A DNA stretch of 64,000 nt from an uncultured Lachnospiraceae bacterium. GTDB taxonomy: Bacteria; Bacillota; Clostridia; Lachnospirales; Lachnospiraceae. The notes under the pieces are model-generated. The model made no database searches, was not told the origin of the DNA, and was given only the letters and a program-made list of their open reading frames with translations. Location: positions 1 through 64,000 of the forward strand of contig CANOCU010000004.1 of assembly GCA_947564645.1 (NCBI GenBank), given 5' to 3'. Each line of letters opens with the position of its first letter. Positions within the stretch are counted from its first letter, which is position 1. Made by a program: the position numbers and the translations under genes. Shown here piece after piece: positions 3,398 to 34,389 of the stretch.

Positions 3398-4507
3398 ATG
3401 AATTTCGCGGCACCGGAGGCTTCTGTACTGATCGTAGATGACAATGAAATTAATTTGGAGGTGACGGCGGCTCTTCTGGAACCGCTTAAGATGAAAGTCG
3501 ACCTGGCGGACAGCGGCAAACAGGCGCTGTCCTTAGCGCATCAGAAAAGATATCACCTGATATTTATGGACCAGATGATGCCGGTGATGGATGGCGTGGA
3601 GACGACGAAGAGGCTTCGCCGTCTGCCGGATGCTTATTGCCGCACGGTGCCGGTCATCGCTTTGACAGCCAATGCATTGTCGGAGGTCAGGGAGGAGCTG
3701 CAGCAGGCCGGTATGAATGATTATCTGGCAAAGCCGGTAGAAGCGAAGGCTCTGTACCGCTGTGTGTTAAAGTGGATCCCGCGGAAACTGATCGTGATCT
3801 CGCAGGGAGGACAGAAGGAGCAGGGTCCGGAGGGGAAAAATTCCGGGAATATGCCAGAGAGTGGAAGGACCGGATCAGTAAACGGCGTGACAGGCGAAGG
3901 GCAGAAAGCGGACAGCGGCGCTTTGCCGCAGCTTCCGGGTATCAACCCGGCGGACGGTATCCGCTATACCGGCAGTGAAAAGATGTGGCTGAAGCTGCTG
4001 GGTGATTTCTATAAGCTGATCGATTCCAAAGCAAGAAAGCTGGAAGACTGTGTGGCGGACGGTCTGATCCGGGATTATACGATCGAGGTGCACGCACTGA
4101 AGAATACGGCGCGGATGATCGGGGCGGCGCAGCTGTCCGAATGGTTTTTCAGGATGGAGAAATGTGGTAAGGCAGGAGATGTGGAGACTATCGCGAAGGA
4201 GACGCCGGGCCTGATTAGCGAACTGAAAGGGTATAAGGAAGTCCTGCGTCCCTATGGGGAAGAGAATGATCGGAATAAGCGGGAAGCGCCCGTCTCGGAG
4301 TGGATCACGCAGCTGACCATCCTGCGGGATGCCATGGAGAGATTCAGCCTGGATACGGTGGACGGGGCCATGCAGCAGCTGGAGCAGTACCGCGTGCCAA
4401 AGAAGTGCAGCGAGTCGATGGAACTTCTGCGGGCGGCAGTGGCGGATGTGAAGATGAAGGATGTGATGGATGTTGCGGAGAAGATGATAGAGGAATTACA
4501 GTCCTGA
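3398..4507 (+). CDS. Response regulator with C-terminal Hpt-like domain
   Basis: Phosphorelay protein of 369 aa. Residues 8 to about 125 form a receiver domain: acidic pair VDDNE, phospho-acceptor Asp58 in FMDQMMP, conserved Thr in IALTANA, and Lys in YLAKPVE. After a charged linker, a helical Hpt-like domain carries EVHALKNTARMIGA with candidate phospho-His232. The ending is another helical segment. No kinase, HATPase or DNA-binding output is present, so it resembles the detached C-terminal half of a hybrid sensor kinase and needs a partner encoded elsewhere. The start follows TTAAGGAGGGGCTT. It is convergent with purC. Confidence 0.85.
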   Translation: MNFAAPEASVLIVDDNEINLEVTAALLEPLKMKVDLADSGKQALSLAHQKRYHLIFMDQMMPVMDGVETTKRLRRLPDAYCRTVPVIALTANALSEVREELQQAGMNDYLAKPVEAKALYRCVLKWIPRKLIVISQGGQKEQGPEGKNSGNMPESGRTGSVNGVTGEGQKADSGALPQLPGINPADGIRYTGSEKMWLKLLGDFYKLIDSKARKLEDCVADGLIRDYTIEVHALKNTARMIGAAQLSEWFFRMEKCGKAGDVETIAKETPGLISELKGYKEVLRPYGEENDRNKREAPVSEWITQLTILRDAMERFSLDTVDGAMQQLEQYRVPKKCSESMELLRAAVADVKMKDVMDVAEKMIEELQS

Positions 4508-4548
4508 GCGTTTCCAAACGGTTTTCTGATTATAATGAAGAAAAGAGT

Positions 4549-4596
4549 CCGTATCATGATGCAGGATACAGGAGCAGCATCATGATACGGGCTTTT
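4549..4596. terminator. Bidirectional hairpin terminator
   Basis: A perfect 14-bp stem (CCGTATCATGATGC at 4549-4562 against 4577-4590) with a 14-nt loop. It has GCTTTTCG on the right and an A-rich stretch on the left. It separates the REC-Hpt gene from convergent purC and can serve both. Confidence 0.75.
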
Positions 4597-4652
4597 CGAT
4601 TGGTCGATCCTGCGGTTTTCTCTTGACGGATCAAGCACTGTCCGTCCGCCTG

Positions 4653-5522
4653 TTACAGCTTCTTTCCGGTCAGCAGCTCATATGCCTGCAGGTACTTATC
4701 GATGGTCTTTTGGACGATCTCTTCCGGGAGCGTCCAGTCGTGGCCTTCGTTGCTTTTGAGCCAGTCTCTGGCGAACTGCTTGTCGAAGGAGGGCTGTCCG
4801 TGGCCCGGTTCATAACCTTCCGCAGGCCAGAAACGGGAGCTGTCGGGGGTCAGCATCTCGTCACCCAGAACGATATTGCCGTCCTCGTCCAGTCCGAATT
4901 CGAACTTGGTGTCTGCGATGATGATTCCGCGTGTCAGCGCATATTCCGCACACTTCTGATAGAGGGCGATGGTATAGTCGCGCAGTTTGGAAGCGTATTC
5001 TTCTCCTTTGCCGGGGAATCTTTTTTCCAGGTAGTCCACGCTCTGCTCGTAGGAAATGTTCTCATCATGATCGCCGATCTCCGCCTTGGTGGAAGGGGTA
5101 TAGATGGGCTCGGGCAGCCTGGCTGATTCCTGCAGACCTTCCGGTAATCTGATGCCGCATACGGTGCCGTCTTTCACATAGCTTGCCCAGCCGCTTCCGG
5201 TGATGTAGCCGCGCACGATGCACTCAACGGGCAGCATCTCAAGCTTCCGGCATAACATGCTGTTGCCGTCGAATCTTTCCTGGCGGAAGAATTCGGGCAT
5301 GTCCGCCACATCCACAGAGATCATGTGATTGGGCAGGATATCCCGTGTCATGTCGAACCAGAATTTGGACATCTGCGTTAAGACAGCGCCTTTCTTTGTC
5401 ACCCGGTTCTTTAAGATCACGTCGAAACAGCTGATGCGATCCGTTGCGACCATGATCAGGCTGTCGCCATTGTCATAGATCTCTCGTACTTTGCCTTCTT
5501 TGATGGGTTTTAATTCAGTCAT
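4653..5522 (-). CDS. purC: SAICAR synthase (phosphoribosylaminoimidazole-succinocarboxamide synthase)
   Basis: Catalyses the ATP-dependent condensation of CAIR with aspartate in de novo purine synthesis. The 289-aa product shows the family landmarks: KEGKVREIY at the N-terminus, DRISCFDV, PVECIVRGYITGSGW (SAICAR signature), and IADTKFEFG with DEMLTPDSSRFW. I chose ATG 5522 because GGAGG lies 6 nt upstream; the more distal ATG 5528 abuts the Shine-Dalgarno. No other pur gene is in the window. A small gene of unknown function lies 40 bp upstream in the same direction and may be co-transcribed. Confidence 0.95.
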   Translation of the reverse strand: MTELKPIKEGKVREIYDNGDSLIMVATDRISCFDVILKNRVTKKGAVLTQMSKFWFDMTRDILPNHMISVDVADMPEFFRQERFDGNSMLCRKLEMLPVECIVRGYITGSGWASYVKDGTVCGIRLPEGLQESARLPEPIYTPSTKAEIGDHDENISYEQSVDYLEKRFPGKGEEYASKLRDYTIALYQKCAEYALTRGIIIADTKFEFGLDEDGNIVLGDEMLTPDSSRFWPAEGYEPGHGQPSFDKQFARDWLKSNEGHDWTLPEEIVQKTIDKYLQAYELLTGKKL

Positions 5523-5562
5523 GATCATCCTCCGTGTATTTGTACTGATATTGCATTCGATC

Positions 5563-5730
5563 CTATTCATATTCCAGATCCTGGATATTCACACCGTATA
5601 GCGCTAATTTTGCTTTCGCTTCTCTCAATTGATATTCAAGTTCGGGATTTTCACCTTTTTCAAACTTCTTGATACGCTGCAAATTACAGTAGGTTCTGAT
5701 AGATATATCGATGATTTCTTTTTCATTCAT
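5563..5730 (-). CDS. Small hypothetical protein, 55 aa
   Basis: A 55-codon frame beginning MNEKEIIDISIRTYCNLQR and ending QDLEYE, with a good Shine-Dalgarno (GGGGAAGGAGACTTGCAGGC) before the ATG. It is charged, predicted helical and has no signal or membrane segment. I do not recognise a family. Strong start signals and a position directly upstream of purC on the same strand support it as a real gene. Confidence 0.6.
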   Translation of the reverse strand: MNEKEIIDISIRTYCNLQRIKKFEKGENPELEYQLREAKAKLALYGVNIQDLEYE

Positions 5731-5879
5731 GCCTGCAAGTCTCCTTCCCCTGCTTCGGAACAGATATCGGTGACCGGTTACAGCAAATATTATAGCGGAT
5801 TCTGCAGTGGGTGTAAAGCGTAACGAAACAGGTATTTAAGTTTACCCCCTTCATTGAGAAGCATTTGAGGAACAAAGGG

Positions 5880-7265
5880 CTACGGATTCTCACGGCGTCT
5901 GCGGAAGATCCGGATCTTACTGAAGAAGCAGTAATACACGATAAAGAGCACGCTGGTGATGGTCCAGGTGAGCGGATAACTGAAGGTCACGGTATAGACG
6001 TCCGGTCTTCTGGGTACGGCCAGCATGATCCAAAGGACGCGGATCAGACAGATGCCGCTTAAACAGATGAGCGTGGGGATCCAGCAGTCGCCTACGCCGC
6101 GCAGGGCGCCGGAAAGCACTTCGACACAGACATAGGTGACGAAAGTGGGCACCAGGAAGTGGACGATCTGCATACCGATCCGCAGCACTTCGGGGTCTGA
6201 GGTGAAGAGGCTGTAGAGAAGGTGGCCGCCGATATTTAACAGGGCGCTGATCAGGACAGTGGATGCAAAGCACATGGCCAGGCAGCTGCCGATGCCCTTC
6301 CGTACCCGGTTCATCTTGCCGGCGCCGTAATTCTGCCCGGCGAAGGTGGTAATGGCGATGCCGAAGGAGCTGATGGTCATCCAGAAGAGAGCATCCATCT
6401 TGCCGTATACGGTCCAGGCTGCCACGGTGTCCGTCCCCAGGCCGTTGATGGCGGCCTGGATAATGATGTTGGAAAGGCTGTACATCACGGACTGCAGGCC
6501 GGCGGGAAAGCCGATGCGGACGATCCGGTGCAGCATTTTCCGGTCGATGCGGATCCGGCGCAGATCCAGTCGATGCATGTCCTTCACCCGCACCAGGACC
6601 AGGATCACCAGTACGGCGCTCAGAGCCTGAGAGCAGATGGTAGCGATCGCCGCGCCTGCCACGCCCAGATCAAAGCAGACGATCAGGAGCAGATCGAGCA
6701 GGATGTTGGTAAAGCAGCTGGCGATCAGGAAGTACAGGGGACGCCTGGAATCGCCCACGGCCCGCAGGATGCCTGCGCCCACATTGTAGATCAGATTGCC
6801 GATGGTTCCCACATAATAAATGCGGATATAGAGAATGGCCGGGGTCAGCACGTCCTCCGGGGTATCCATGGCAGTGAGGATGGCCGGTGCGGTCAGGATC
6901 CCGCCCACCATCAGTACGAAGCCGCCCAGGATGCTGAAGGCGATGGCAGTATGCACCGCGTAATCCACTAATTCCGCTTTCTTAGCGCCATAATACTGGG
7001 AGATCACCACGCTTGCGCCGCTGGACAGGCCCACGAAGAAGCCCACTAGCAGGTTGATGACCGTACCGGTGCCGCCGCCCACGGCGGAGAGCGCTTCTTT
7101 GCCCACGAAGCGGCCCACGATCACGGCATCGGCCGCATTGTAGAGCTGCTGGAAAAGTGTCCCGAATAAGATCGGGAAGAAAAACAGGAGCAGCTGTTTC
7201 CAGATGACTCCTTCTGTGATCTTGTTTTCTGTTGTCTGTGTGATCTTCGTGTCTTTTGTGTTCAT
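5880..7265 (-). CDS. MATE family efflux transporter
   Basis: Polytopic membrane protein of 461 aa with twelve hydrophobic segments, the normal MATE size and topology; such proteins export organic cations or drugs in exchange for Na+ or H+. Family features include FPILFGTLFQQLYNAADAVIVGRFVG in helix 1, then KEALSAVGGGTGTVINLLVGFFVGLSSGASVVISQYYG, and the duplicated half starting near RKMLHRIVRIGFPAGLQSVMYS. The substrate is not deducible. It lies downstream of the AraC-type gene on the same strand, 180 bp away, and could be in its regulon. The stop codon is TAG. Confidence 0.92.
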   Translation of the reverse strand: MNTKDTKITQTTENKITEGVIWKQLLLFFFPILFGTLFQQLYNAADAVIVGRFVGKEALSAVGGGTGTVINLLVGFFVGLSSGASVVISQYYGAKKAELVDYAVHTAIAFSILGGFVLMVGGILTAPAILTAMDTPEDVLTPAILYIRIYYVGTIGNLIYNVGAGILRAVGDSRRPLYFLIASCFTNILLDLLLIVCFDLGVAGAAIATICSQALSAVLVILVLVRVKDMHRLDLRRIRIDRKMLHRIVRIGFPAGLQSVMYSLSNIIIQAAINGLGTDTVAAWTVYGKMDALFWMTISSFGIAITTFAGQNYGAGKMNRVRKGIGSCLAMCFASTVLISALLNIGGHLLYSLFTSDPEVLRIGMQIVHFLVPTFVTYVCVEVLSGALRGVGDCWIPTLICLSGICLIRVLWIMLAVPRRPDVYTVTFSYPLTWTITSVLFIVYYCFFSKIRIFRRRRENP

Positions 7266-27650: not shown

Positions 27651-29198
27651 ATGAGGAAAAAACATATACCGGAAATTCGAAGGGTTCAGGGGATTCCCAC
27701 AATGTACGTGGACGATGAACCGTTCCTGGCATTGGCCGGAGAAGTACATAATTCGGCAGCGTACAGCCTGGAATCCATGGAGACGCAGGTTTGGGCAAAA
27801 ATAGAAGGGATGCATTTGAATACGCTGATCGTCCCCTTATACTGGGAAACGATCGAGCCGGAGAAGGGATGCTACCGGTTTACACTGATAGACGGACTGA
27901 TCGGTCAGGCGCTGGAACGGGGAATGCATCTGATCTTTCTTTGGTTCGGACTTTGGAAGAACGGAGAATCCATGTATGTGCCGGGATGGATGAAAGAGGA
28001 TCAGGCAGTTTACTTCAGGACAGTCACAGCCAGTGGAGAAAGAATGAATGCGATCTCGCCGTTTTGCCGCAGGGCGGTGGAGCGTGATAAGGCGGCATTT
28101 GCGGCAGTGATGGAACATATCCGGACAGTGGATGAAGAGCATACTACGGTGATTGCCATGCAGGTGGAGAATGAGATCGGCCTGCTGGGGACGGACCGGG
28201 ATTATGGAAAGGAAACGGAGAGGGAATTTGCCTGTCAGATTCCGGAGGCGCTGGCGGAGGCGTACAAAGTGAGCGGAGACTGGCGGACTGCCTTTGGTGA
28301 GGATGCCGGGGAGTACTTTATGGCATATTATTTTGCCGTCGCCGTCGAAAGGATAACGGCTGCAGGACAAGAGCGGTATCCGCTGCCCTGCTATACCAAT
28401 GCCTGGTTAAAACAGTTTCCCTGGTATGCAGGGTCTTATCCGTCCGGAGGTCCGGTGAAAGAGGTACACCGGATCTGGAAACTAGCTGCACCGTCCCTGT
28501 TCGCACTGGCGCCGGATATCTATCTGCCCAATACTGCAGAAGTGATGGAGGAATACGGTTATGAGGGGAATCCGCTGTTTATCCCGGAGACCAGAAAGGA
28601 TGCAGTGACCGCTTCCTGTTGTCTGTATGCATTTATGAAATGCCACGCGCTGTGTTACTCTCCTTTCGGGATTGAGGATCTTGGCAGGGAGCAGGAGGAG
28701 ATCCGCAAGCCGCCTTCGGATGTGATGCAGGCGCTGCAGATCGACCCGGCCGTATTTGAAACGGAGGGAGGCAAAAAGTATTTGGGCAGGGTCTATGAAG
28801 TGATCGGACAGATCAGGCCGCTGTATCTGCAGTACCGTGGCACAGAGCGTATGCAGAGTTATATGAAGCGTTCAGGGACGGAGAGAGGGATCTTTCTGCG
28901 GTTTCGGGAATACGATCTTGTGGTTTCCTATTTGCCGCAGATTCCGGCACAGCCGGTCTCCTCCGGGGTGGTCTTTGAACTGGAGAACAACAGATTCCTG
29001 ATCGTGGGCATGATGTGCACGCTGTCCTTTCGGACGAAGCCGGGAGAACGTACACAGGCCGGTATCCTGAAGCTGCAGGAGGGCAGTATGCGCAGTGGAG
29101 AATGGGAGAGTGAGAGAACTCTGAACGGTGATGAACAGATCGTGCTGCATCTTGGAGATGAAGCGGCTTGTCTGTATGTGGAATTGTATCAATATTGA
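27651..29198 (+). CDS. GH35-like beta-galactosidase with DUF5597-type C-terminus
   Basis: Predicted retaining glycosidase of 515 aa with a TIM barrel. It opens FLALAGEVHNSAAYSLESME and has LNTLIVPLYWETIEPEKG. The acid/base Glu is in AMQVENEIGLLG and the nucleophile Glu in NPLFIPETRKD. The C-terminal beta domain resembles DUF5597 found in GH35-type enzymes. No signal peptide is present, so the substrate is taken up first, presumably by the importer encoded directly upstream. A GGGAGGTTGGC ribosome-binding site precedes the start. It is the last gene of the ABC operon. Confidence 0.85.
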   Translation: MRKKHIPEIRRVQGIPTMYVDDEPFLALAGEVHNSAAYSLESMETQVWAKIEGMHLNTLIVPLYWETIEPEKGCYRFTLIDGLIGQALERGMHLIFLWFGLWKNGESMYVPGWMKEDQAVYFRTVTASGERMNAISPFCRRAVERDKAAFAAVMEHIRTVDEEHTTVIAMQVENEIGLLGTDRDYGKETEREFACQIPEALAEAYKVSGDWRTAFGEDAGEYFMAYYFAVAVERITAAGQERYPLPCYTNAWLKQFPWYAGSYPSGGPVKEVHRIWKLAAPSLFALAPDIYLPNTAEVMEEYGYEGNPLFIPETRKDAVTASCCLYAFMKCHALCYSPFGIEDLGREQEEIRKPPSDVMQALQIDPAVFETEGGKKYLGRVYEVIGQIRPLYLQYRGTERMQSYMKRSGTERGIFLRFREYDLVVSYLPQIPAQPVSSGVVFELENNRFLIVGMMCTLSFRTKPGERTQAGILKLQEGSMRSGEWESERTLNGDEQIVLHLGDEAACLYVELYQY

Positions 29199-29234
29199 CT
29201 CTGTATGAAAACAATACATAATATTCGACTACGA

Positions 29235-29281
29235 CCTCCTCTTGTGGTATACTTAACAAAGTATATTTCCACGAGAGGAGG
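29235..29281 (+). promoter_or_regulatory. Hairpin able to sequester the GTPase ribosome-binding site
   Basis: CCTCCTCTTGTGG (29235-29247) pairs with CCACGAGAGGAGG (29269-29281), 12 Watson-Crick pairs plus one wobble. An inner TATACTT/AAGTATA stem (29248-29254 with 29259-29265) continues it, with a 3-nt bulge. The right arm holds the GAGGAGG Shine-Dalgarno that lies 7 nt before ATG 29288, and the left arm is its complement. The same bases contain a possible -10 (TATACT 29248-29253). If transcription starts just downstream of that, the palindrome would be an operator instead. Confidence 0.7.
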
Positions 29282-29287
29282 ATTTTC

Positions 29288-32161
29288 ATGGGCGGACAGG
29301 CAGAGGAAAAGGAATCCCGGGAGCCGGTAAAACATATATGTGCGGGTCTGCTGGCCCATGTAGATGCGGGAAAGACGACGCTGGCGGAGAGCATTCTGTA
29401 TACGGGCGGGCAGATCCGCAGGCTAGGGCGGGTGGATCATGGGGACGCCTTTCTGGATACGGATGTGCAGGAGCGCGACAGGGGCATCACCATCTTTTCC
29501 AAGCAGGCGCAGGTGCAGTGGCGGGGGATGGGGATCACGCTGCTTGATACGCCGGGACACGTGGACTTCTCGGCGGAGATGGAGAGGACGCTGCAGGTGC
29601 TGGATTATGCGGTGTTGGTCATCAGCGCGGCGGACGACCTGCAGGGGCATGTTCTGACGCTGTGGCGTCTTTTGGAGCGTTACCGGGTGCCGGTTTTCCT
29701 TTTCCTCAATAAGATGGACCAGCCGGGCGCAGACGGGGACAGTCTGTTGTCGGAATTGAAAGAAAAGCTGGATGAGCGGATCGTGAAGTTCGGACACAAG
29801 GACGAGGCCTTCTACGAGGAGGTCGCGGTCTGCGATGAAGGGCTTCTGGAACAGTATCTGGAGACGGGAGAGCCGGTCGATGATGCTGCGATCGCCGGAC
29901 TGATCGGAGAGCGCAGGTTATTTCCCTGTTATGGAGGGTCAGCCCTGCAGGCGGAGGGGATTGACAGGCTGTTAGACGGTCTGTTTACCTATACGAAAGC
30001 GCCGGCGTATGGACCGGCGTTTGGTGCGCGGGTCTATAAGATCGCCAGGGACGCCCAGGGAAACCGGCTGACTTATGTGAAGGTGACGGGCGGCACGTTA
30101 CGCGTAAAGCAGGCGATCCCGGTGGGAGAGAGCGCTGAATCCAACAGCGGCGTATCGACACTGCGGGAAGAGAAGGTGGATCAGATCCGCGTCTATTCGG
30201 GCAGTAAATATACGACGGTGCAGGAGGCCTGTGCGGGGATGGTCTGTGCGCTGACAGGACTGTCTTCCACATTCTGCGGGCAGGGTCTGGGTGCGGAACG
30301 GGGGACGGTGCTGCCTGTGACAGAGCCGGTCATGACGTATCGGATCGGACTGCCGGAGGGCTGTGACGTGCACCGTATGTATGAGAAGTTATGTCAACTC
30401 GAAGAGGAGGAACCGCAGCTGCATCTTGTCTGGAAAGAGCAGGTGAATGAGATTCACGCACAGCTGATGGGGGAAGTGCAGATCGAGGTGCTGCGGAATC
30501 TGATCCGGGAGCGTTTTGACGTGGAGGTTTCCTTTGACGAGGGCAGTATCGTCTACAAGGAGACGATCATCGACAGAGTGGAGGGGATAGGTCATTTCGA
30601 GCCGCTGCGGCATTATGCGGAGGTACATCTGATCCTGGAACCGGCAGAGCCGGGATCCGGGCTGCAGTTTGCCACGGCAGTGAGCGAGGATGATCTGGAC
30701 CGGAACTGGCAGCGGCTCGTGCTGACCCATCTGGAGGAAAAGGAACATCCGGGGGTGCTGACGGGTGCCCCGATCACGGACATGCGGATCACACTGGCTG
30801 CGGGGAAAGCCCATAAGAAGCATACCGAGGGCGGGGACTTCAGGCAGGCCACCTACCGGGCAGTCAGACAGGGGCTGTGCAAGGCCCGCAGTGTGCTGCT
30901 GGAGCCGGTCTATTCTTTCCGGCTGGAACTGCCGCTTGCCCTGATCGGCAGAGGGATGACGGATCTGCAGAGCCGGGCGGGGAAGTTCGAGGCGCCGGAG
31001 ACAGACGGCGAGTGTGCCGTCCTGCAGGGTACGGTGCCGGTGTCCGAGATGACGGGCTATCAGGCCCAGGTGCGGGCCTATTCCGGCGGAAAAGGCAGAT
31101 TATTCATGGAATTGAAGGGATATGCGCCCTGCCATAACACGGAGGAAGTGATCGCTGCCATCGGCTACGAGGCGGAACATGACGTGGAGAATCCTTGCGG
31201 TTCCGTTTTCTGTGCCCATGGGGCGGGATTTGTGGTGCCCTGGGATCAGGTGGAGGCGTATATGCATCTGGAAAGCGCGCTGACAGGCTTGCAGGACGGC
31301 GACAGGCAGGACGGATACAGTGCGCAGGATGCGTGGGAAACAGGCGCAGAGGAAGAGAACGGCGGGTACGCGGTCCGGTACGGCAGCAGGCGGGACGTCC
31401 GCAGCCAGGGATCCGTGGCGGATGTGATCGGACAGGATGAGATCGACGAGATCATGGCCCGCACCTATGGAACGAAGGAGCGGAAGAAACAGGGGTGGGC
31501 GAGGACCATACGGCCTTCCGAACCCGTGGGAAAAGAGAGAAACGGAGGCGGCAACAGACAGAGTGCTTTGCCGCAGGAAGAATACCTGTTAGTGGACGGT
31601 TATAACATCATCTTTGCCTGGGATCTTCTGAAGGAACTGGCGCAGGTCAGTCTGGACGGCGCCAGAGGCAGGCTGATGGATATTCTGAGCAATTATCAGG
31701 GGTACCGTAAGATACATCTGATCCTGGTATTTGACGCCTATAAGGTAAAGGGAAATCCGGGCAGTACGGTCCGTTATCACAATATCGATGTGGTCTATAC
31801 GAAGGAGGCGGAGACTGCGGATCAGTACATTGAGAAGGTGACGCATGAGATCGGCAGAAAGCATCATGTCCGTGTGGCCACCTCCGACGGACTCGAACAG
31901 CTGATCATCATGGGCGCCGGGGCAATCCGGGTTTCCGCCAGAGAGCTGCAGGAGGAAGTGATGGAGGCAGGGGAGGAACTGCGGCGGATGTTCCTGCATC
32001 CACAGCTGCAGCAGACAGGCGGACGCAATTATCTGTTGGAAGGCGCCCCGGAGGAAGTGACGGCGTACCTGGAGCAGATAAAGGAGAACGGGTTCGTGGA
32101 GAAGGGGAACCTGGATCAGATGAGGGAGAACAAATCCGTGGAGAAGGGGAACCTGGGGTAG
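29288..32161 (+). CDS. Tet(M)/EF-G-like translational GTPase fused to a YacP/Rae1-type NYN ribonuclease domain
   Basis: A 957-aa two-part protein. Residues 1 to ~690 are a translation-factor GTPase of the ribosomal-protection class: G1 AHVDAGKTT, G2 ERDRGITIFSK, G3 DTPGHVDF, G4 NKMD, then domains III-V ending GSVFCAHGAGFVVPWDQ. After a charged linker, residues ~764-935 match YacP/Rae1 (NYN, PIN-like fold): YLLVDGYNIIFAW, LILVFDAYKVKG, YTKEAETADQYIE and VATSDGLEQLI, so all the acidic catalytic positions are kept. Rae1 of Bacillus cuts mRNA in the ribosomal A site. A fused GTPase suggests ribosome-directed cleavage or rescue; tetracycline protection is not shown. The C-terminal tail is made of 42-bp repeats and ends at a TAG inside one of them. 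A SUV3-like helicase gene follows. Confidence 0.88.
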   Translation: MGGQAEEKESREPVKHICAGLLAHVDAGKTTLAESILYTGGQIRRLGRVDHGDAFLDTDVQERDRGITIFSKQAQVQWRGMGITLLDTPGHVDFSAEMERTLQVLDYAVLVISAADDLQGHVLTLWRLLERYRVPVFLFLNKMDQPGADGDSLLSELKEKLDERIVKFGHKDEAFYEEVAVCDEGLLEQYLETGEPVDDAAIAGLIGERRLFPCYGGSALQAEGIDRLLDGLFTYTKAPAYGPAFGARVYKIARDAQGNRLTYVKVTGGTLRVKQAIPVGESAESNSGVSTLREEKVDQIRVYSGSKYTTVQEACAGMVCALTGLSSTFCGQGLGAERGTVLPVTEPVMTYRIGLPEGCDVHRMYEKLCQLEEEEPQLHLVWKEQVNEIHAQLMGEVQIEVLRNLIRERFDVEVSFDEGSIVYKETIIDRVEGIGHFEPLRHYAEVHLILEPAEPGSGLQFATAVSEDDLDRNWQRLVLTHLEEKEHPGVLTGAPITDMRITLAAGKAHKKHTEGGDFRQATYRAVRQGLCKARSVLLEPVYSFRLELPLALIGRGMTDLQSRAGKFEAPETDGECAVLQGTVPVSEMTGYQAQVRAYSGGKGRLFMELKGYAPCHNTEEVIAAIGYEAEHDVENPCGSVFCAHGAGFVVPWDQVEAYMHLESALTGLQDGDRQDGYSAQDAWETGAEEENGGYAVRYGSRRDVRSQGSVADVIGQDEIDEIMARTYGTKERKKQGWARTIRPSEPVGKERNGGGNRQSALPQEEYLLVDGYNIIFAWDLLKELAQVSLDGARGRLMDILSNYQGYRKIHLILVFDAYKVKGNPGSTVRYHNIDVVYTKEAETADQYIEKVTHEIGRKHHVRVATSDGLEQLIIMGAGAIRVSARELQEEVMEAGEELRRMFLHPQLQQTGGRNYLLEGAPEEVTAYLEQIKENGFVEKGNLDQMRENKSVEKGNLG

Positions 32162-32235
32162 ATGAAGGAGAATAGATCCGTGGAGAAGGGGAATCTGGAT
32201 CAGATGAAGGAGAACGGATCCGTGGAGATGGGAAA
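32084..32235 (+). repeat. Tandem 42-bp repeat across the 3' end of the GTPase-NYN gene
   Basis: About 3.5 copies of a 42-bp unit built around GGAGAACNNATCCGTGGAGA and GGGGAACCTGGATCAGATGA. The unit encodes 14 residues of the type KENGSVEKGNLDQM. Two copies are inside the gene. The second copy carries GGGTAG where the others have GATCAG, creating the stop at 32159-32161. The remaining copies continue in the same frame to a TAG at 32261-32263. Confidence 0.8.
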
Positions 32236-32277
32236 CACGGTATCCGGGACAGAACGATCATAGAATGGAAGATAATT

Positions 32278-34389
32278 ATGGCAAGAAGACACACAAGACA
32301 TGGAAGATATACAAAACAGGATACGATAAGCAGCCGGCAGGAGCAAAATGATCAGCAGGAAACTTCTGACCGGGCGGATGTGGCGGCCAAAGGAGCGGAA
32401 GAGGAGAAGGAGCAGAATCCCGTGGATCTTCCGGAAGCCGTGTGGGCGGTCTATCTGCAGACTTTCCTGGAATTTAGCGATAAGGAGCACCGGCGGTTTA
32501 TCAAGGGCTGCGAGAAGCAGATCGGGCAGCTGGAGCGGCGTATCGCCCGCAAGAAGGGACAGGAGAACCACCAGGTACTGGCCGATATGAAGGAACTGCA
32601 CAAGAAGACGGCGGCGATCGGTTATACGGTGGCAGGCAAAGAGACCAGGCTGCTTAAGAAATACAAACATGTTCTGAGAATGCTGGCCAGACTGGATATT
32701 ACGTTTCTGCATAAGATGGCGGCGGGCGCGAATCCGGAAGATATCGTGCATATGCCGGGTGCGGCGCTGCTGCTGCGGTCCAGGTCTCTCTATGAGATCT
32801 ATAAGGAAGAGTACATGCAGTATCTGGTGGGCCAGCGCATTGAGGAACTGATGGAGGCGGAGCCGGAGAAACAGTATCCGGAGGCCAGAGGTATGCAGCG
32901 CCATTTTATCCTGCACATAGGACCTACCAACAGCGGCAAGACTTATCAGGCGCTGCAGCGGTTGAAGCAGGCATATCATGGTATTTATTTAGGCCCTTTG
33001 CGTCTGCTGGCATTGGAGGTCTATGACCGGATGACGGCGGCAGGCATTCCCTGCAGTATGGTTACCGGAGAGGAATCGATCCGCACGCCGGGCAGTTTCG
33101 TACAGGCGTCCACGGTAGAGATCATGGATATCCGTGAGATTTACGATATCGCAGTGATCGACGAGGCCCAGATGATGGCGGATGAGAACCGGGGCAGTTT
33201 CTGGACGAGGGCCATTCTCGGCATCCGGGCGGAGGAGATCCATGTGTGCTGCTCCGGCACGGCAGAGCCGCTTCTTACTAAGATGATCGAGCGGTGCGGC
33301 GACTCTTACGAGACGGTTTATCATGAGCGCAACACCAGGCTGGAATTTATCCCGAAGCGTTTCGATATGAGCAAGGATGTGGAGCCGGGAGACGCTTTGA
33401 TCGCCTTTTCCAAGAAAAATGTACTGGCCATTGCAGCCACTCTGGAAAGCCGGGGAATCAAGGCCAGCGTCATTTACGGCAATCTGCCGCCTCAGACGAG
33501 ACGGGAACAGGTGCGCCTTTTTACGGAGGGTGTGAATCAGGTGGTGGTAGCCACGGACGCCATCGGAATGGGGATCAATCTGCCGATCCGCCGGGTGGTC
33601 TTCATGAATACGTCCAAGTTTGACGGCACGGACAAGCGGCGCCTTGAGGCGGAGGAGATCAGGCAGATTGCCGGGCGCGCCGGACGGTATGGCTACTATG
33701 ATGTGGGTTATGTGCAGTCGGCGATGGATGTGGAGTATATCGGCAAGAAGCTGGAAGAGCCGCTGCAGCCGCTCACCAAAGCGAGGACGGGATTCCCGGA
33801 GGTGCTTCTGGATATCGACATGGAGTTGGATGAGATCATCGAGGCCTGGGAAGGTACGAAGAATCTGGCTTTCTACGACAAGATCTCCATGGCGGAGAGC
33901 GTGAAGAAGTACCGGTATCTGAAGAATTACCGTAAGAAGCTGTCTTATATGGAGGACAGGAAGTTCGTGCTGTCCCTGATCACCTGCCCCTTCGATGTGA
34001 AGGACAGAGAAGTGCTGCGTCTGTGGCTGTGGTACTGTGAGAAGCCGACGGAGGATCACAACTGTCCGATGCTGCCCCAGGACTTTACGTTGGAAGGATT
34101 GGAGTCCTATTACAAACAGCTTGACCTGTATACCCAGTTTTCCGGCAGGATGAACTGGGAGATCGACAAGGAAGAGGTGGCGGTGAACAGGGAGTGGGCC
34201 CAGTCCGTGATCGGGGAGATGTTGGAGGACGACAAAGGGCAGTTCGAGAAAAAATGCCGGGGCTGCGGCGTGGCACTGCCCTGGGATTACGATTTCCCGA
34301 TCTGCCAGGAATGTTATCACAGCGGTGTCAAGGACGACCGGGTGCGGCGTTCCATGCATCGGTATCCGCATGACCGAAACAGAAGGTAG
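32278..34389 (+). CDS. SUV3-like ATP-dependent RNA helicase
   Basis: Superfamily 2 helicase of 703 aa related to SUV3, the helicase of the mitochondrial RNA degradosome. A ~200-residue helical N-terminus precedes motif I GPTNSGKT. Motif Ib VTGEE and motif II as DEAQ (AVIDEAQMM) follow, then motif III CSGTAEP and motifs V/VI ATDAIGMGINLP and QIAGRAGRYG. The C-terminus ends in a four-Cys zinc-ribbon-like element: CRGCGVALPWDYDFPICQEC. There is no obvious ribosome-binding site beyond GGAAGATAATT before ATG. It lies 116 bp after the GTPase-NYN gene, which suggests a shared role in RNA handling, but that is inference. Confidence 0.9.
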   Translation: MARRHTRHGRYTKQDTISSRQEQNDQQETSDRADVAAKGAEEEKEQNPVDLPEAVWAVYLQTFLEFSDKEHRRFIKGCEKQIGQLERRIARKKGQENHQVLADMKELHKKTAAIGYTVAGKETRLLKKYKHVLRMLARLDITFLHKMAAGANPEDIVHMPGAALLLRSRSLYEIYKEEYMQYLVGQRIEELMEAEPEKQYPEARGMQRHFILHIGPTNSGKTYQALQRLKQAYHGIYLGPLRLLALEVYDRMTAAGIPCSMVTGEESIRTPGSFVQASTVEIMDIREIYDIAVIDEAQMMADENRGSFWTRAILGIRAEEIHVCCSGTAEPLLTKMIERCGDSYETVYHERNTRLEFIPKRFDMSKDVEPGDALIAFSKKNVLAIAATLESRGIKASVIYGNLPPQTRREQVRLFTEGVNQVVVATDAIGMGINLPIRRVVFMNTSKFDGTDKRRLEAEEIRQIAGRAGRYGYYDVGYVQSAMDVEYIGKKLEEPLQPLTKARTGFPEVLLDIDMELDEIIEAWEGTKNLAFYDKISMAESVKKYRYLKNYRKKLSYMEDRKFVLSLITCPFDVKDREVLRLWLWYCEKPTEDHNCPMLPQDFTLEGLESYYKQLDLYTQFSGRMNWEIDKEEVAVNREWAQSVIGEMLEDDKGQFEKKCRGCGVALPWDYDFPICQECYHSGVKDDRVRRSMHRYPHDRNRR

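Follow-up and report, generated by a model that had tools for sequence, protein, structure and literature searches.

What is the function of a protein in which an EF-G-like GTPase and a Rae1/YacP-type nuclease share a single chain? This question is raised by the gene trGTPase-NYN, located on the plus strand of the window, i.e., the 64,000-nucleotide stretch of contig CANOCU010000004.1 (assembly GCA_947564645.1, an uncultured Lachnospiraceae bacterium) that was analyzed here. The gene runs from ATG 29288 to TAG 32161 (29288..32161) and encodes 957 amino acids (aa). Overall, we lean slightly toward a ribosome-directed mRNA-cleavage or rescue factor for which the GTPase would supply the ribosome targeting, as the original prediction had suggested from the letters alone. 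By the tests run, the GTPase falls outside the Tet proteins, in a separate clade beside the ribosomal protection proteins (RPPs).

Both halves of the chain are complete, as had been claimed. In order, and each above its Pfam cut-off, the open reading frame (ORF) contains GTP_EFTU (residues 15-236; G domain, 29330..29995, + strand as for all parts of the gene), EF-G_D2 (247-328) and EFG_III (345-416; domains II and III, residues 247-416, 30026..30535), EFG_IV (420-533; domain IV, 30545..30886), EFG_C (536-617; domain V, 30893..31138), and NYN_YacP (767-931; 31586..32080). Between EFG_C and NYN_YacP lie a family-specific C-terminal extension of the GTPase (residues 618-662; 31139..31273) with the motif SVFCxxGxxFxVxW...YMH, and a weakly constrained linker (residues 663-763; 31274..31576), which is 74-132 aa long in 11 relatives and holds a short conserved EIDxIxxRTYG stretch. 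The G1 (AHVDAGKTT), G3 (DTPGH), and G4 (NKMD) motifs are intact, with their residues kept in 122-123 of 123 distinct fused proteins, and these motifs together with domains II-V place the N-terminal half in the EF2/EF-G translational GTPase superfamily. The C-terminal half combines two features of a Rae1/YacP nuclease, i.e., the NYN_YacP profile match (2.9e-48, profile positions 1-164 of 166) and the acidic catalytic residues (D770, D816, D845, and D867). The acidic motifs that had been read from the sequence (VDGYN, VFDAYK, ETADQYIE, and TSDGLEQ) are all in the translation; Asp770, Asn773, and Asp816 are kept in 123/123 distinct fused proteins, and Asp845 and Asp867 in 122/123, the exception (L130) being truncated by the locus end. 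The closest solved structures by sequence were EF-G, TetO, and TetM for the N-terminal ~620 residues, and YacP/Rae1 (5mq8 and 5mq9; phmmer 3.7e-26, 138 aa aligned) for the C-terminal NYN. In the source genome, the single NYN_YacP match is the fused gene's own, and the three EFG_IV genes are the fusion and two EF-G-type genes, whose frames measure 709 and 707 aa.

An assembly artefact absent from relatives, the possibility against which the prediction had to be checked, was ruled out, since a single frame carried both parts in 80/80 of the best loci from a scan of named genome contigs (at least 80 exist; two of the 80 are truncated by the locus end). Cultured carriers include Clostridium polysaccharolyticum DSM 1801, Anaerovorax odorimutans DSM 5092, Hungatella hathewayi WAL-18680, Desulfosporosinus acididurans M1, Clostridium punense DSM 28650, and Fusibacter sp. 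3D3. Both the GTPase half and the NYN half are under purifying selection: the ratio of non-synonymous to synonymous substitution rates (dN/dS; Nei-Gojobori, custom script) against the nearest relative, L193, was 0.10 for the GTPase, 0.006 for the C-terminal extension, 0.075 for the NYN, and 0.34 for the linker. Against three further relatives, for which linker values were saturated and tails too short for counting, it was 0.16-0.19 for the GTPase and 0.08-0.14 for the NYN.

The relationship of the GTPase to tetracycline-protection proteins was evaluated in a quick tree built from a selection of 91 rows (43 fused, 25 separate from a NYN, 6 NYN-less, 1 intermediate, 9 RPP-like, and 7 EF-G), which has long branches, is supported by Shimodaira-Hasegawa-like approximate likelihood ratio (SH-aLRT) values only, and leaves out the broken protein of G471 (L074). 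One clade (100) held the fused, separate, and NYN-less GTPases, apart from the RPP-like (91) and EF-G (100) rows, and the fused GTPases formed a clade of their own (99) nested within it. NYN-less GTPases branched at several points, two from f59 adjoining the fused clade (84), and RPP-like rows were the nearest other group. Against NCBIfam models, the window protein reached 396.8 bits for tet_protect (cut-off 775) and 270 for tet_protect_M_W (cut-off 1100), and also stayed below the Otr(A), Tet(Q), and Tet(M) cut-offs; three unfused members scored 408-414 bits for tet_protect, below the cut-off as well. Both scanned proteins that passed a Tet cut-off were the controls, L090 (1308, tet_protect_M_W) and L170 (959, tet_protect).

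The domain IV tip points the same way. In PMC7456112, TetM is described as binding the A site via domain IV, with Pro509 overlapping the tetracycline site. When the tip loop of the window protein (residues 506-519, GKAHKKHTEGGDFR; 30803..30844) was compared with that of TetM, as had been proposed, Lys511 and His512 were found to replace Pro509 and Val510; control L090 has Pro at 509. Lys or Arg occupies position 511 in 43/43 fused, 25/25 separate, and 6/6 NYN-less rows, and in a free member from Ligilactobacillus salivarius 511 is Val and 509 is Ser. Ser-Pro at the tip was found in 0/74 fused, separate, or NYN-less rows versus 3/9 RPP-like rows, including L090 and L170; Ser-Pro is likewise missing from the other six RPP-like rows, in which 509 and 512 are both His, so that the tip fails to separate these from the GTPase family of the fusion. 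An EF-G-like His at 509 is shared by 42/43 fused, 25/25 separate, 6/6 NYN-less, and 7/7 EF-G rows. Two further features were absent from all 9 RPP-like and all 7 EF-G rows: the GH[FY]EP loop (42/43 fused, 25/25 separate, and 6/6 NYN-less rows) and the SxFC motif of the extension (43/43, 24/25, and 6/6, respectively). As a separate observation, L163, L165-L168, and L171 are RPP-like GTPases with His-rich tips (e.g., GEHHNEHTHPLDFI) that group with the RPPs in the tree, and those scanned (L163, L165, L166, and L167) were all below the Tet cut-offs.

Overall, the fusion GTPase resembles Tet(M), Tet(O), and Tet(W) in its five-domain EF-G-like layout, with a G' region shorter than that of EF-G, and in ~30-32% identity, but differs from them in its clade, in Lys511 for Pro509, in its scores below the Tet cut-offs, in loop 433-445, and in the C-terminal extension. 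With EF-G it shares the domain layout and the tip His, whereas EF-G has a longer G' region and other loops and, beyond the first G segment, is 24-28% identical to it. By the tests run here, the initial description as a Tet(M)/EF-G-like GTPase holds for the five EF-G-like domains and not for membership of the tetracycline-protection family, beside which the GTPase forms a separate clade, while the expectation of something other than simple tetracycline protection is backed by the tip residues, the clade, and the missed cut-offs. Tetracycline protection by the TetM route is, on these sequence comparisons, unlikely for the fusion protein.

A broader role in antibiotic resistance, in which the GTPase would remove a non-tetracycline drug from the ribosome (or tetracycline in another manner) and the NYN would trim mRNA on drug-stalled ribosomes, has to be weighed separately. 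The fusion is already in print: in Atkinson 2015 (PMC4342817), a YacP-like NYN on Tet proteins is reported in ten Clostridiales species, by description the same fusion, which was placed in a Tet subfamily with a guess at a possible resistance mechanism. A resistance role would be near to that guess, and would fit the kinship with RPPs seen in the tet_protect score and in the tree, as well as two RefSeq records that name members as TetM/TetW/TetO/TetS-type. The distance to the Tet cut-offs and the lack of Ser-Pro throughout the 74 rows, shared with six RPP-like rows, argue against it, as does the full-length frame in 96/120 genomes of the host's family, unlike a patchy mobile resistance gene. 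We consider such a role rather unlikely. Likewise, a mobile resistance gene as the general case was rejected, since only 2 of the 370 plasmid records matching the query at 1e-30 cover 80% of the fusion.

The NYN half was compared with free Rae1. An initial NYN tree, distorted by clipped domains that gave branches of length 10, made way for one of 69 rows, which omits three fused rows (L157, L159, and L160) with VDSYN or VDAYN, the motif search having required VDGxN. In the best tree the fused state takes two changes, and a single fused clade costs only 0.64 log units and is not rejected (approximately unbiased test, p-AU 0.18); the simplest reading, not proven, is that the fusion probably arose once. 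Free rae1 usually lies between rlmB and sigH: in nine fetched loci, rlmB-like, mrnC-like, and cysS-like neighbors were each found in 6/9 and sigH-like neighbors in 5/9, under gene names that we assigned and checked against annotated gene order. The source genome retains the cysS-mrnC-rlmB-sigH homologues in order, with no NYN between rlmB and sigH but a 475-aa ORF (SGNH-hydrolase-like by eye), i.e., the ancestral rae1 locus persists there without rae1.

Compared with Rae1/YacP of B. subtilis (5mq8 and 5mq9), the fusion shares the NYN domain and its acidic residues but has the NYN joined to a GTPase, lacks the LExxR tail, and is encoded outside cysS-mrnC-rlmB-sigH. Specifically, Arg881 (window numbering) was found in 34/34 free Rae1 versus 68/122 fused rows, Arg932 in 34/34 versus 23/122, and the C-terminal LExxR tail in 28/34 versus 13/122, even though diversity is higher among the free rows (mean pairwise identity 0.45 versus 0.54; one of the 122 fused rows is a duplicate of the window). 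Catalytic residues showed no shift between free and fused NYN. Among the free Rae1 rows, LExxR is present in 15/16 whose genome also encodes a separate GTPase and in 13/18 others, the rest being near variants (e.g., LDKIR). The window NYN keeps Arg881 and ends in LEQIK, and so lacks LExxR, a feature derived here. Tail loss and variation at Arg881 in the fused NYN would fit a takeover of ribosome docking.

The search for the two-domain architecture across relatives, which had been proposed as a check, returned fusions well beyond the host's family. Within the family, NYN_YacP was found in 108/120 genomes, comprising the 96 full-length fusion frames (at least 840 aa), 5 genomes with frames of 260-690 aa (G443, G467, G470, G503, and G507; at least some are contig breaks), one with the GTPase and NYN halves as neighboring frames on one contig (G423), and 6 with a free NYN_YacP (174-184 aa). 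Five of these six (G438, G408, G433, G412, and G471) also hold an unfused GTPase relative, 42-45% identical and with a broken frame in G471, and the sixth (G397) has none. The GTPase was found in 0/12 family genomes without NYN_YacP (best matches ≤130 bits); these may have lost the fused gene and are not independent evidence. Two genuine fusions that contain inserts (G396 and G444) escaped the threshold of 1e-170 used for the family, and absence was therefore cross-checked by frame length.

Across the class, NYN_YacP was found in 250/393 genomes (as a 19-residue trace only in G261), with a single match in 245/250, two in G120, G174, G208, and G284, and three in G370. The GTPase profile matched 168/393 genomes at 1e-140, giving a raw cross-table of 159 genomes with both, 9 with the GTPase only, 91 with the NYN only, and 134 with neither. 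After removal of five RPP-like genomes (G130, G042, G195, G236, and G381; match ending at profile 590-592) and the intermediate G376, the remaining 162 were split by hand into 135 with fused or broken fusion pieces, 21 with a free GTPase and a separate NYN (two of these, G372 and G331, assigned from a 664-aa GTPase frame only), and 6 with a free GTPase and no NYN_YacP (G025, G028, G054, G068, G178, and G288). By hand count, the fusion occurs in ~26 family codes of the class. Among the 231 genomes without the GTPase, 94 have NYN_YacP, including a 451-aa frame in G185 that is probably a cut fusion; NYN frames in NYN-only genomes measured 160-226 aa, except for G185, G286 (342 aa), and the G261 trace. 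With G185 omitted and kinship ignored, NYN_YacP was present in 21/27 class genomes with an unfused GTPase versus 93/230 without the GTPase (Fisher p 3.3e-4). At the level of the phylum, 20 of the 348 searched genomes were matches from other classes: 14 with frames of 877-927 aa, of which 7 were checked and had the NYN in frame in 7/7 cases, and 6 with frames of 651-674 aa. Of the five strict free GTPases among the latter (intermediate G829 excluded), four are accompanied by a free NYN_YacP and one (G808) by none.

In the literature, B. subtilis Rae1 is described as translation-dependent and active in the ribosomal A site, with S1025 (yrzI mRNA) as a known substrate. In the cleavage or rescue reading that we favor, ribosomes whose A site is open or stalled would be bound by the EF-G-like half, using GTP hydrolysis and the conserved tip of its domain IV. 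The Rae1-type NYN tethered to it would cleave mRNA in or beside the A site. The GTPase would provide the ribosome targeting that free Rae1 achieves alone and, once the mRNA is cut, might also clear or reset the ribosome. Because domain IV and Rae1 are both assigned to the A site, the two halves would have to act in turn. We infer ribosome binding, cleavage, delivery, turn-taking at the A site, and order of action of the fusion protein from sequence and from its better-known relatives. Several observations weigh against this reading: simultaneous binding of domain IV and Rae1, both thought to occupy the A site, is unlikely; the co-occurrence of unfused GTPase and NYN ignores kinship, with 14/21 positive genomes from one family (f37); 6/27 unfused-GTPase class genomes have no NYN_YacP match, and ~93/393 class genomes carry NYN_YacP without a GTPase of the fusion type; the fused rows form one clade, so that the LExxR change may reflect one loss and later drift, and tail alignment is poor; and no conserved neighbor gene backs a pathway, the largest cluster covering 14/93 fused loci. 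In the few genomes with an unfused GTPase and no NYN_YacP, the GTPase must serve some independent role. A more far-reaching proposal, possible but doubtful at present, is that of an unnamed translational-GTPase subfamily with Rae1 as its main partner, in which domain IV would open or check the A site and hand it to the tethered NYN, whose docking tail could then be lost, making this the main A-site mRNA-cleavage route of Clostridia commensals.

The GTPase could also act second. As a recycling or quality-control GTPase, comparable to a recycling EF-G paralogue, it would split or translocate the truncated complex after the NYN has cleaved. The EF-G-like His509, the genomes in which the GTPase occurs without NYN_YacP, and the difficulty of fitting both halves into the A site together are all compatible with this; yet subunit splitting or a partner factor is without support and the order of events is unreadable from sequence, and we regard this reading as unlikely. 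An incidental fusion of two co-expressed, ribosome-linked proteins acting independently, with the linker as a mere tether, is very unlikely: the weakly constrained linker and the occurrence of GTPase and NYN alone elsewhere would fit it, but one fusion has been retained in ~26 class family codes and in 14 genomes outside the class, and Rae1's own tail has apparently been lost from the fused NYN.

Upstream of the gene, a promoter-like site (29195..29224, +; TTGACT with CATAAT or TAATAT) is a consensus match only. It is followed by a leader hairpin (29235..29281, +; -33.1 kcal/mol, z -6.9) that would bury the gene's own Shine-Dalgarno sequence by pairing it with CCTCCTC. Among 44 leaders compared, the pattern recurs in L198 with one compensatory pair, and was not found in the other 42, including that of the closest relative, L193. 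At the other end, a 42-bp tandem repeat in 4 copies (32067..32236, +) codes for the C-terminal tail, and since the stop codon lies within the array, tail length may differ among strains. The adjoining gene (32278-34389) encodes a bacterial Suv3-like DEXQ-box helicase with Helicase_C; an operon with this helicase as an RNA-decay partner was rejected, as a relative was nearby in 1/93 fused loci (some with short flanks). Beyond chromosomal loci, two unannotated "Bacteriophage sp." records from human feces (MT835563.1 and MT835514.1) carry a near-complete fusion gene at 54% and 49% identity, and are either phage-borne copies or mislabeled host contigs. Ligilactobacillus, in the Lactobacillales, contributes 36 plasmid records matching the query at 1e-30, and a 213-kb plasmid of L. 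salivarius (L359) holds a free member of the GTPase family at 4037-5956 (841 bits).

The claim that the fusion had no experimental description stands insofar as our literature search gave no experimental study of it, with Leroy 2017 and Condon 2018 (Rae1 distribution), which may mention it, outside that search; the fusion as such was published in 2015. Relative to the Tet placement in that study, the GTPase here forms its own clade, unfused members included. Our analysis adds to the 2015 record the non-Tet clade, the unfused GTPase members, a probable single fusion, the rae1-less ancestral locus of the source genome, and tail loss in most of the fused NYN. Of three annotated members opened, those of Agathobacter rectalis (fused) and Ligilactobacillus salivarius (free) are labeled as TetM/TetW/TetO/TetS-type resistance proteins, and that of Monoglobus as a "translation factor GTPase family protein". 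Since the window protein and three unfused members fall below the curated Tet cut-offs, some resistance-gene counts may be inflated. If true, the cleavage or rescue reading would provide a defined GTP-driven route bringing an mRNA-cutting enzyme to stalled ribosomes, and would raise the question of why Rae1 elsewhere needs no GTPase partner. The fusion protein looks like a distinct, long-inherited translation-control factor of many Clostridia.

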